From NCBI GenBank assembly GCA_020723935.1, contig DYHY01000025.1, positions 3,408 through 11,708 on the forward strand: a stretch of 8,301 nt of DNA, read 5' to 3'. Below, in pieces: positions 1,445 through 8,176 of the stretch (its first letter is position 1; each line of letters begins with the position of its first letter). Made by a program: the position numbers and the translations under genes. The notes under the pieces are model-generated. The model was not told the DNA's origin, ran no database searches, and saw nothing but the letters and a program-made list of their open reading frames with translations. Origin of the DNA: Candidatus Micrarchaeum sp. (lineage in GTDB: Archaea > SpSt-1190 > DYHY01).

Positions 1445-2917
1445 ATGCCAGATTCCCCAGACTCCCCGGCAGCAGTGGCAGGGCGGGAGAAGTTCAATGT
1501 CGTCGGGCCGGAGGGTAGCATCCTCCTCCTCCTCGGGAGCACCGGATCCTCGGCAGTCGTCTGCACCCTCTGGACGCCCAAGGCCGCCTTCGCCCGCTTC
1601 GACAAGGAGACGTATTTCGCGCTCGGGAACTTGTATTCTATCGACGGGATCAACCTCCTCATCAGGAACCTCCTCCTCAACCCGCACTGCAGGACGCTCG
1701 TCGTTACGGGCCACGACCTTTCCGGAAGCGGCGAGGCGCTCCTGGCCTTCTTTTCCGGCCGGAAGGGAGACTACGAACCCGACGAGGGCCTCCCTGCCGG
1801 GGCGATCGGCCTTGTTAGGGCGAACGTCTCGGCAATCGACATGAGGAAGAAGCCGCTTTCCGAGGTGGAGGCTTTCCTCAAGGGCCTCGCGGGGAAGAAG
1901 GGGGCCGCGCCCCCGTATGCCGAACCCAAGAGCTACCCGATCCCCCCGAGGAAGCTGGACCCGACCTTGGATTCCGAGGAGGCGGGCTATTTCATCCGCC
2001 ACAAGACGATCGCGAACGCCTGGCTGGAAGCTCTGAGCCTCGTGGACAAGTTCGGCGCGGTGAAACGGACCGAATACGGCAACAAGATGCGCGAGATTTT
2101 CAACCTCGTCGCGGTGATCAACGAGGACGACGGGAGCCTCGCCGAGTTCTTCCCTTTCACGGCAAAGGACCTGGAGGCGTACCTCCCCTCCATCCTCACG
2201 CCCGAGCGGCCGGCCGCGATCTCCTACACCTACGGCTCGCGCCTCTTCTCGCGCGAGGACAGGATGAACGCCGACCAGGTGACCCTTGCCATCGAGCACC
2301 TGAAGAGGACCCCGCACACCCGCCGCGCCGTCGCCTTTACCTGGCGCGTCTCCGAGGATTCCGGGAGCGAGCATCCGCCCTGCCTCACCCAGATAGTGTG
2401 GGGGATACGAGAGGGCCGCCTCTTCCAGACAGTCGTCTTCAGGAGCCACGACATCTTCTCGGGCTGGCCGATGAACCTCCTCGCCCTTCGAAAGCTCCAG
2501 CAGAACGTGGCGAAGGAGGTGGGCGTGAAGACGGGCGCCCTAACGTGCGTTTCTAACTCGGCGCACGTCTACGAGGACAAGTTCGGGAAGATGCGAGAGA
2601 TCCTCAACAAGTACTACCACCACCACCACCACCACCGCCCGAGCCCCGCGCTCATAATTGACCCGCGCGGCTCCTTCGTGATATGCCTCAAACGCGAGGC
2701 GGGCGAGGTGTTCGTCGACCATTTCAGCACAGCCCACAAGAAGACCGGCTACTTCTTCCGCGGGAGGGAGGCGAAGGAGATTATCAGCAACATCCTCAAC
2801 GAGAACCTGGTGTCGCGCCTGGACCACGCATACTACCTCGGAAAGGAGCTTGAGCGCGCCTTCCGGGCGCTCAGGGAGGGGAAGCCCTACGTCCAGGACG
2901 AGAACAGCTGTCCCTGA
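1445..2917 (+). CDS. thyA: Thymidylate synthase with N-terminal MtrA-like domain
   Basis: A 490-residue protein that would methylate dUMP to dTMP using a methylene-carrying reduced pterin. Residues about 188-490 are the classical thymidylate synthase fold. They include catalytic Cys313 in HPPCLTQ, the phosphate-binding pair Arg293-Arg294, the RSHD motif (333-336), GWPMN with Asn344, and His374/Tyr376 in AHVYE. The retained Asn at 344, equivalent to Asn177 of E. coli, favours dUMP over dCMP. Residues about 17-150 are not part of ordinary thymidylate synthases. The stretch LLNPHCRTLVVTGHD followed by SGEALLAFF resembles subunit A of tetrahydromethanopterin S-methyltransferase and related DUF4346-type domains, as recalled from the family pattern. 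Residues 392-397 are six consecutive histidines, in a loop before strand ALIID. ATG 1445 was chosen because a TATA box lies 33 bases before it and the frame upstream looks non-conserved. The catalytic assignment is firm; the N-terminal domain's function is inferred. Confidence 0.9.
   Translation: MPDSPDSPAAVAGREKFNVVGPEGSILLLLGSTGSSAVVCTLWTPKAAFARFDKETYFALGNLYSIDGINLLIRNLLLNPHCRTLVVTGHDLSGSGEALLAFFSGRKGDYEPDEGLPAGAIGLVRANVSAIDMRKKPLSEVEAFLKGLAGKKGAAPPYAEPKSYPIPPRKLDPTLDSEEAGYFIRHKTIANAWLEALSLVDKFGAVKRTEYGNKMREIFNLVAVINEDDGSLAEFFPFTAKDLEAYLPSILTPERPAAISYTYGSRLFSREDRMNADQVTLAIEHLKRTPHTRRAVAFTWRVSEDSGSEHPPCLTQIVWGIREGRLFQTVVFRSHDIFSGWPMNLLALRKLQQNVAKEVGVKTGALTCVSNSAHVYEDKFGKMREILNKYYHHHHHHRPSPALIIDPRGSFVICLKREAGEVFVDHFSTAHKKTGYFFRGREAKEIISNILNENLVSRLDHAYYLGKELERAFRALREGKPYVQDENSCP
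2618..2635 (+). repeat. (CAC)6 triplet repeat encoding His6
   Basis: Six uninterrupted CAC codons inside the thymidylate synthase gene, directly after two Tyr codons and before an Arg codon. A pure triplet run like this can expand or shrink by slippage in steps that keep the frame. Confidence 0.9.
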
Positions 2918-2961
2918 CCCGCGCCGCCCGCCCGTCCTGCTGGCCGAAATATCGACAAATG

Positions 2962-2970
2962 TTATAAATA
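2962..2970 (+). promoter_or_regulatory. TATA box of the pilin gene
   Basis: TTATAAATA is a near-consensus archaeal TATA box centred 31 bases before the ATG at 2997. It lies in the short GC-rich gap after the thymidylate synthase stop, so the pilin is probably its own transcription unit. Confidence 0.75.
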
Positions 2971-2996
2971 CTAAACCTTCGCCCATTAGGCGCTGT

Positions 2997-3503
2997 ATGG
3001 CAACAAATGACGCGGCAGGCCATGTTTCCCGTTCAACCGGCAGGCGCCCGGCGCAAGGAGCCCTCGAATACCTGATAACCTACGGGTGGGCAATCCTCAT
3101 CATAGTCATTATCGGCGGCGCCCTGTTCGCCCTAGGCGTGTTCAACCCGAGCAGCTGGGTGTCGAACAAGCGCGCGACCGGGTTCACAGCGCTCCAGATC
3201 AAGGACTGGGCGTTCATGGGAACGACACCCACGGCGACGGTTAACGAGCTCATCTTCCGCTTCCAGAACAAGGCGGGATATCCAATCACGCTTTGGGGCG
3301 TTAATTCAACAGGTGAGCATGCTTGTGATAACGTTTTCTCCAATACACTCATACAGGAAGAAGATACCGTTGCAATTCCGACTCTTTGCAGCACCGGCGC
3401 GACCGAGAAGGGCAAATCATACACAATCAATCTCCTTCTCTACTACGAAGCCAACGGCCTGAACCACACCGACTTCGGAACCCTCGCAGGCAAGGCAGAA
3501 TAA
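2997..3503 (+). CDS. Class III signal peptide (archaeal pilin-like) protein
   Basis: A 168-residue pilin precursor. Residues 1-19 are a basic leader (SRSTGRRPA), followed by QGALEYLITYGWA from residue 20 and a hydrophobic helix to about residue 47. The Gln at +1 and Glu at +5 after the predicted cut match the class III signal (Q-X-S/A-X-E-X-X-X-L) processed by EppA-type prepilin peptidase, so cleavage is expected between Ala19 and Gln20. The hydrophobic helix would pack in the filament core, and the remaining ~120 residues form the exposed head. The head has a few sequons (NST, NHT) and two cysteines. ATG 2997 is chosen over upstream in-frame codons because of the TATA box and the normal short leader. 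The middle of the head (about 3300-3420) is less GC-rich than its surroundings. The next gene encodes a large surface glycoprotein. Whether the filament acts in adhesion or another role cannot be told. Confidence 0.85.
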   Translation: MATNDAAGHVSRSTGRRPAQGALEYLITYGWAILIIVIIGGALFALGVFNPSSWVSNKRATGFTALQIKDWAFMGTTPTATVNELIFRFQNKAGYPITLWGVNSTGEHACDNVFSNTLIQEEDTVAIPTLCSTGATEKGKSYTINLLLYYEANGLNHTDFGTLAGKAE

Positions 3504-6473: not shown

Positions 6474-7019
6474 ATGGGACTTCGACCTGCGAAATCGGTA
6501 AGGGCGCCTACCAATCCTCCGTACACCCGCGTCTCCAACAGGGTGATGAAGAAATCGTTCATCCGCGGAGTGCCCGGCTCGAAGATGCACACTTTCCAGA
6601 CCGGGAAGAGGGGCCTTTTCGGCTACAAGGTGACGCTCGTCGCGACCAAGAAGATGGTCCTGCGCCACAACCAGCTGGAAGCCGCGCGCGTGGCGGCGAA
6701 CGGCCACTGCACCCTGAAGCTGGGCCTCGAGGGCTACTTCATGAAGGTCTACGTCTACCCCCACCAGGTCATACGCGAGAACGCCCTAGCGACGGGCGCG
6801 GGAGCCGACCGCTTCCAGTCGGGGATGTCGCGCGCCTTCGGCAAGCCCACTTCCACGGGCGCCGTCGTCAAGAACGAGACCAAGATCATGGCCCTCTGGG
6901 TCCCAGCGGACAAGCTGGACGTCGCCAAGGAAGCATTCAGGCGCGCCGCGATAAGGCTCTCGGTGAAGACCAAGCTCGTCGTCGAGAAGGGCGCGATGGA
7001 TTCGAGGAAGGCGGATTAG
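6474..7019 (+). CDS. rpl10e: Large-subunit ribosomal protein L10e (uL16)
   Basis: A 181-residue protein of the large ribosomal subunit, the archaeal/eukaryotic counterpart of bacterial L16. It contacts 23S rRNA near the tRNA sites. Recognised segments, in order, are LRPAKS at the N-terminus, FIRGVPGSK, RHNQLEAARVAAN, VYPHQVIREN with ATGAGADR, SRAFGKP, and the C-terminal AIRLSVKTKLVVEKG. The length is usual for archaeal L10e. The start is fixed by the N-terminal MGLRPAK, typical of the family (M-L-R-P), and by a TATA box 26 bases upstream. A DUF457-like membrane gene follows after only 19 bases and probably shares the transcript. No missing key segment was seen. Confidence 0.95.
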   Translation: MGLRPAKSVRAPTNPPYTRVSNRVMKKSFIRGVPGSKMHTFQTGKRGLFGYKVTLVATKKMVLRHNQLEAARVAANGHCTLKLGLEGYFMKVYVYPHQVIRENALATGAGADRFQSGMSRAFGKPTSTGAVVKNETKIMALWVPADKLDVAKEAFRRAAIRLSVKTKLVVEKGAMDSRKAD

Positions 7020-7518: not shown

Positions 7519-8176
7519 CTATTTCTTCCCGTCCCACTCGAAATAGAATTCCTCGAGGAAGCTCTCCATCACCTTCTGCCTTCCAGCCGCAAGCCTCTTC
7601 GCCTCGCGCGTGCGCAGGATATCCTTCAGGCGCAGGAGCTTCTCGTGGAAGTGGTTTATTGTGTGGCTGGCGCCGCGCCTGCGGTACTCGGCCTGCGTCA
7701 TCTTGAGTTTGGGCTTGACGGATGGCTCGTATATCGGGCGCCCCTTGGACCCGCCGTACGCGAAGGTCCTTGCTATCCCTACCGCCCCCATCGCGTCCAG
7801 GAAGTCCGCGTCCCTGACTATCTCGCCCTCGATTAAGGACATCCGCGGATTCTTCGCCCTAGTAGTGCCGGGGAAGTTCATCTCCGAGATTATCCCCGCC
7901 ACCTTGCCGGCCGTCTCGGGATTGACGCCTATCGAAAGTAGGAGCGCCCCCACCTTCCTCGGGCCTATAATGTCGTTCCCCTTGTTGAGCTTGTAATCGG
8001 CGATGTCGTGCAGGAGGGCCGCGAGCTCAACGACGAAGACGTCGGCGCCGCGCTCCTCCTCGCCGCCTTCCAGACCCGCCAGATGTGCCACCAGTCGTGC
8101 CGGAGGATTCGCCGGAATGCAGCTTCCTCATCCTTTCGGAGACGAGCTTCACAATCTTCTTGTGGGACGCGTCCAT
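7519..8176 (-). pseudogene. HD-domain phosphohydrolase, frame-broken near its 5' end
   Basis: Read from 8176 leftward, frame 1 gives MDASHKKIVKLVSERMRKLH and ends in GESSG. A second frame gives HDWWHIWRVWKAARR. A third frame gives GADVFVVELAALLHDIADYK and the whole remainder to the stop at 7519. Together these match one family, the YedJ-like HD hydrolases of nucleotides or phosphate esters. The first His-Asp and later His residues lie in HDWWH, the HD dyad in LLHDIAD, and the last Asp in DADFLDAMGAVGIAR. The C-terminal part of 190 codons is intact. The first break can be explained by one missing C between GESSG and HDWWH (about 8098-8103), and the second by loss of one or about ten bases in a GC-rich repeat (about 8050-8069). 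The metal-binding region spans three frames, so as written the protein could not work. Sequence error at both sites is also possible. ATG 8176 fits the family start and a TATA box 30 bases upstream. Confidence 0.75.

Follow-up and report, generated by a model that had tools for sequence, protein, structure and literature searches.

The window, by which we mean the whole 8,301-nucleotide stretch of Candidatus Micrarchaeum sp. DNA that was analysed, carries a fused gene of three domains whose 490-amino-acid open reading frame was confirmed on the forward strand from the ATG at position 1445, within a frame that is open from position 1109 (Table 1). Homologues of the product begin at approximately residue 25, and the GTG at position 1475 is therefore a possible alternative start. 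The other genes noted in the window encode an S-layer outer-domain protein (8-868), a pilin-like protein with a class III-type signal (2850-3503), ribosomal L16/L10e (6474-7019) and an HD-domain protein (7519-8091), none of which has a relation to C1 metabolism. A sequencing frameshift or a chance fusion as the origin of the long frame was considered and excluded, as the same architecture occurs in seven other genomes and about 77 viral loci.

Table 1. Features of the fused gene, with positions counted from the first nucleotide of the window.
Feature	Position	Strand	Basis
Fused gene, 490 aa: MtrA-derived domain, methanogen-type ThyA and PterinBD-DUF4346	1445..2917	+	Open reading frame, family models
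MtrA-derived domain, residues ~29-150, His84/Glu54 equivalents lost	1529..1894	+	Profile comparison
Methanogen-type thymidylate synthase domain, residues 183-390	1991..2614	+	TIGR03283, PF00303
Codon of catalytic Cys313	2381..2383	+	Column invariant in eight fusions
Codon of Asn344	2474..2476	+	Alignment with other ThyA
His6 run, residues 392-397, CAC repeat, in linker	2618..2635	+	Sequence
PterinBD-DUF4346 domain, residues 404-486	2654..2902	+	PF14251

The central part of the protein was matched by two thymidylate synthase (ThyA) models, PF00303 at residues 261-405 (76.3 bits, cut-off 24.3, Pfam scan) and the methanogen-type TIGR03283 at residues 183-380 (E=1.3e-48, NCBIfam scan). The start of the latter match leaves about 180 residues ahead of the ThyA core, close to the approximately 170 given in the initial annotation. 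The fused ThyA missed the equivalog cut-off of TIGR03283 (165.2 vs. 174.55 bits); its ThyA region covered nearly the full length of the model in the alignment and shared all of the catalytic residues. In an alignment with other ThyAs, C313, R293/R294, R333, S334, D336, N344, H374 and Y376 fall on the catalytic columns, and the intact ThyA that the initial annotation had recognised by Cys313, Arg293-294, Asn344, His374 and Tyr376 is borne out with every residue at the position it gave. The Cys313 column shows no variation across eight aligned fusions, and the ThyA residues of the window protein are the same as those of methanogen ThyA. A dCMP-hydroxymethylase-like activity was ruled out by the retained Asn344, a dUMP-type residue at the ThyA position that we take to be associated with dUMP specificity. 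Compared with the methanogen-type ThyA of TIGR03283, the window protein differs in having extra N- and C-domains and in residing in a host without MtrH or a recognised SHMT. In ThyA trees, in which the deep forks are unresolved, it clusters with the proteins of G292, G115, G274 and G167, and the viral proteins form one clade. The window ThyA is closer to other fusions than to the operon ThyA of the sister genome G001, so that the fusion need not derive from the gene set of the sister. A search of genome contigs for relatives returned a single sequence, a Clostridia ThyA.

The C-terminal domain was matched by PF14251 at residues 406-485 (E=1e-22, 81.1 bits, cut-off 29.6, Pfam scan), a family labelled pterin-binding in its name alone and for which no convincing solved relative was found. 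DUF4346 occurs with MtrA, ThyA, SHMT and dihydropteroate-synthase-like barrels. The domain is shared with known PterinBD-DUF4346 proteins, which comprise stand-alone forms, MtrA+DUF4346 proteins (NF002128-like) and dihydropteroate-synthase-like proteins (TIGR00284), and which, unlike the window protein, have no ThyA domain. A second DUF4346 gene of the host, unfused to ThyA and above the Pfam cut-off, lies at G000:C27 17751-17990 (L037:7314-8000), downstream of a gene resembling an aspartyl-type tRNA synthetase. The six consecutive histidines of the linker that joins ThyA to DUF4346 are natural and are not conserved in homologues.

The Pfam model for MtrA (PF04208) found no match in the window protein or in the host genome at E<=1, and the NCBIfam MtrA model NF002126 matched the window protein weakly in a single-sequence scan (E=0.024). 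Comparison of the window domain with ten true MtrAs gave an hhalign probability of 96.7%; in HMMER, the profile of the same ten scored it at 22.6 bits, where the best of 2000 shuffles reached 3.3 bits, and a profile built from seven other fused N-domains scored it at 87 bits. Compared jointly with true MtrA, the eight fused N-domains reached 99.8% by hhalign (E=3e-29), and their profile retrieved MtrA chains only from the PDB, up to E=10, with 5LAA at E=4e-18. A sibling fusion, L089 (G238), is itself above the Pfam MtrA cut-off (53 bits vs. 25). Judged from these sequence profiles, the N-domain of the window protein is an MtrA by descent with a predicted MtrA-like fold; structures predicted from single sequences, for the full-length protein and for residues 1-172, had a pLDDT of 38, too low to be of use. 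The initial annotation had likened the N-terminal region to MtrA/DUF4346-type domains and proposed an MtrA-family domain joined to thymidylate synthase. The profile comparisons support this fusion and the MtrA part of the likeness, and the DUF4346 part falls away, an N-terminal DUF4346 being ruled out by the match at the C-terminus. Poor conservation of the N-terminal region in homologues, which it had named as evidence against such a reading, was not what we found: the domain was retained by eight archaeal genomes as well as by many viral relatives, and has conserved stretches (NLYS..GIN..LRN.L.NP and, in several fusions, GSG.AL).

MtrA (PF04208; PDB 5LAA, 5L8X) is the corrinoid subunit of the methyl-H4MPT:CoM methyltransferase, and the profile homology of the window domain extends across its cytoplasmic domain. 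The cobalt ligand of MtrA is His84, hydrogen-bonded in turn to Glu54, and conservation within the protein is highest in the loops and GAIPF meander that surround these two residues (PMC4915002). With residues numbered according to PMC4915002 and an alignment to 5LAA, we found E54, N55, G57 and His84 with its preceding glycine to be invariant in 10 of 10 true MtrAs, non-methanogen ones included, whereas the window domain has His84 deleted, Glu54 replaced, the GAIPF meander altered and a fusion to ThyA. All eight aligned archaeal fusions have a deletion of, or no match to, His84 and residue 85; they vary at position 54 (I, K, V, G, G, P, P, T) and retain Ser/Thr53 and Gly57; the GHxxG motif is also missing in the viral relatives. 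The loss of His84 and Glu54 makes it unlikely that the window domain holds a corrinoid as MtrA does, and the domain has probably ceased to work as a corrinoid carrier. The suggestion of the initial annotation that it serves in carrier binding or delivery of the one-carbon unit is consequently doubtful as regards MtrA-like corrinoid handling and could hold only in a changed form.

To define the distribution of the fusion, an MtrA profile was run against 297 archaeal genomes and the long frames were then read. The three-domain order of the window is also present in G238, G292, G115, G274, G195, G202 and G167, and a close variant occurs in G174 and G140, whose divergent tails are missed by the DUF4346 profile. 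Other combinations were found in the same survey: His-bearing MtrA with ThyA and without DUF4346 (G123, G245, G084), MtrA with DUF4346 and without ThyA (G010, G052, G199, G253), a 796-residue protein (G026, L102:815-3205) in which an MtrA-like region and a ThyA region are accompanied by two weak DUF4346-like ones, and, in G104, a fusion of MtrA to MtrH with a tandem ThyA gene after it. The latter gene (L124:4194-5558) has 454 residues; its first half has the Cys and has lost several other catalytic residues, and its second half is apparently ThyA-like. Among the control genomes, that of Synechococcus elongatus gave matches to both MtrA and DUF4346.

In IMG/VR, relatives were identified on 93 contigs, most of these proteins matching over nearly the full length. 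Eighty loci were retained, of which 77 have the N-domain and ThyA in a single frame, and DUF4346 was detectable in 62 of those 77. A dCMP deaminase gene directly follows the fused gene on four of the 77 contigs. Among the viral contigs that were examined more closely, a portal gene of the Mu type was found on one and a gene for the large subunit of terminase on a second; others have parts of bacterial DNA polymerase III and a ribonucleotide reductase akin to the B12-dependent kind. At least some of the contigs are accordingly taken to be tailed bacteriophages. One such reductase gene (L153:1369-3813) lies upstream of a viral fused ThyA on a contig that also has a DNA polymerase III beta clamp. 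Cultured phages and plasmids yielded no full-length relative and ThyA-like matches only.

MtrH (PF02007) was found neither in the host (G000) nor in any fused genome tested and was present in 11 of 36 genomes; as some His-bearing MtrAs occur without MtrH, the link between MtrA and MtrH is one-way. ThyX, the alternative dTMP synthase, has a fold unrelated to ThyA and uses flavin chemistry. It was found in some genomes of the set and is absent from the host by family-model search, which leaves the fused gene as the only recognisable dTMP synthase there at the sensitivity of the models. Conversely, G115, G274 and G292 have ThyX besides the fusion, which need not be their only dTMP synthase. Tandem double-ThyX frames of 430-601 residues were observed at G292:C9, G143:C59 and C27, G044:C25 and G064:C25. 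SHMT is absent from the host and 14 more of the 28 genomes searched, nearly all of which have MtrA-ThyA fusions (14/14 controls were positive). DHFR_1 was above cut-off in none of the 28, host included, and several control archaea are likewise without it. MTHFR is clear in G001, G089, G022 and G122, and the host has a 24-bit fragment only. These absences are to be read with the host genome being 91% complete, so that a gene could be missing, and with the genomes being related, so that they are given as counts and not as probabilities; a Fisher value for MtrH against fusion type was set aside, as its groups had been picked with the data in view and the genomes are related.

The three parts of the fused protein are encoded separately elsewhere. 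In the sister genome G001, mtrA-mtrH-thyA-DUF4346 are four touching genes, with a divergent SHMT gene alongside and MTHFR elsewhere, and in G089, which belongs to a different family, the order is mtrA-mtrH-thyA-DUF4346-MTHFR. The MtrA of the separate-gene operons retains the full TEN...GH...GAIPF set. G022, G044 and G064 have the order dCMP deaminase-mtrA-mtrH, followed in G022 by thyA, MTHFR, SHMT and DUF4346 within approximately 17 kb. In both G022 (L040:8961-10543) and G044 (L039) a DUF4346 gene directly follows SHMT, and the SHMT gene of G044 has a tandem ThyX gene diverging from it. Further links to dUMP supply are an mtrA adjoining dCTP deaminase (G263), an MtrA adjoining dUTPase_2 (G012, with a similar order in G237) and a dCMP deaminase after the fused gene of G195. 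The MtrA beside the dUTPase_2 gene (L117:3605-4395 in G012, L118 in G237) is a short protein of 155 residues with the GH motif, and both genomes checked in this family are without MtrH. In G122 the mtrA-mtrH pair is followed by a MetE-core gene. Outside methanogenesis, MtrA thus recurs in the company of genes for dUMP supply and dTMP synthesis and, in a single case in this set, of methionine synthesis, and these operons, together with the fusions, tie the orphan MtrA/MtrH to thymidylate synthesis. The intact operons with MtrA, MtrH, ThyA and DUF4346 support the general idea of the initial annotation better than the window protein does.

We consider the fused protein to be, as its residues and domains suggest and with somewhat better than even confidence, a working dUMP-methylating ThyA of the tetrahydromethanopterin (methanogen) type with two cofactor-handling flanking domains and no His-ligated corrinoid. 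The ThyA core would methylate dUMP using the one-carbon unit on a reduced pterin, which may be scavenged or produced by unrecognised enzymes. The MtrA-derived domain would no longer carry a His-ligated corrinoid and would have been retained, its loop altered (to 'D..GSG.AL' in the window and in several relatives), either to bind all or part of a cofactor or to serve as a docking surface. DUF4346, whose partners here are pterin or methyl-transfer proteins, may help to keep the pterin close to the active site. Both flanking domains have counterparts that are separate neighbouring genes in G001. Besides the ThyX of G115, G274 and G292, the grouping of the window ThyA in the trees and the low pLDDT, it counts against this explanation that in genomes without SHMT and DHFR the canonical methylene-pterin route is short of its usual supply and recycling partners, and that we know of no activity or structure for any fused member.

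An unlikely alternative is that thymidylate synthesis is methyl-corrinoid-dependent, with the C5 nucleophile of dUMP in the operon ThyA taking the methyl straight from MtrA. SHMT and MTHFR would provide methyl-pterin and MtrH would transfer the methyl to the cobalt on MtrA, so that neither dihydropterin nor DHFR would be required, and the fused forms would be either single-chain versions in which, as in the corrinoid iron-sulphur protein, no His ligand is needed to hold the corrinoid, or else degenerate descendants. Consistent with this, the genes of the chain are co-located in G089, G001 (apart from MTHFR) and G022, DHFR_1 was above cut-off in none of the 28 genomes, ThyA is fused directly to MtrA and not to MtrH, and the mtrA-mtrH of G122 stands ahead of a MetE-core gene, an enzyme kind that includes MesA. 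Among the folate-independent methionine synthases MesA-D, which offer an analogous idea, MesA belongs to a MetE-core-type family predicted to take its methyl from MtrA (PMC7857596); however, the acceptor there is the homocysteine thiol and the fold is another, whereas here the acceptor would be a carbon of dUMP. Against the methyl-corrinoid route, His84 and Glu54 are missing from the window domain and its fused relatives, none of which has MtrH, and G123, G245 and G084 retain the His yet are without MtrH, SHMT and MTHFR. We know of no precedent for a methyl group passing from cobalt to a carbon of a pyrimidine. The ThyA residues do not differ from those of methanogen ThyA, several control archaea lack DHFR_1 anyway, and Methanosarcina extracts formed dTMP from formaldehyde and tetrahydrosarcinapterin, as reported in PMC9931769. 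In its most far-reaching form, which we rate as quite unlikely, the intact-operon archaea would produce dTMP by direct methylation of dUMP from the methyl-cobamide of MtrA, and the fused protein of the window, of other small archaea and of viruses would be a compact descendant, perhaps still using a corrinoid that no His ligates. If true, this would be a third chemistry for thymidylate synthesis, one that spares the pterin from oxidation.

It is decidedly unlikely that the N-domain is a decayed passenger, that is, a relic MtrA serving as a ligand-free structural spacer or dimer support. The lost ligand residues and the missing MtrH speak for such decay, but every fused archaeal lineage and 77 viral loci have retained the domain, and it has the specific conserved stretches described above, which are rare in pure spacers. 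A shared general C1 metabolism (e.g., methionine synthesis) as the whole basis of the adjacency of MtrA/MtrH and ThyA, with a mechanistically uninformative fusion, is very improbable, for although mtrA-mtrH also occurs beside the MetE-core gene of G122 and elsewhere beside unrelated genes, the dUMP-supply neighbours recur (dCMP deaminase in G022, G044 and G064, dCTP deaminase in G263, dUTPase_2 in G012 and G237) and MtrA is fused directly to ThyA in many lineages.

Each domain of the protein belongs to a known family. What appears to be undescribed is how the domains are combined, how widely the combination occurs in archaea and viruses, and the link to the operons, although sequence databases may already show the architecture. 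In the open-access literature, outside which most subscription journals lie, we found no paper on the fusion or mentioning DUF4346, and MtrA by its full subunit name never occurs together with thymidylate. The role of MtrA/MtrH outside methane metabolism has been called unclear (PMC9635834), and archaeal thymidylate synthases are hardly characterised (PMC9931769). The recurrent operon and the fusion merge both gaps into one question, namely, does MtrA/MtrH feed dTMP synthesis? That a fused enzyme is present in small archaea without recognisable SHMT or DHFR raises the question of the source of the thymine methyl, and the same enzyme is carried by uncultured viruses, some of them tailed phages. 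Together, the fusion and the operons point to a way of supplying methyl groups to DNA synthesis that has yet to be described.
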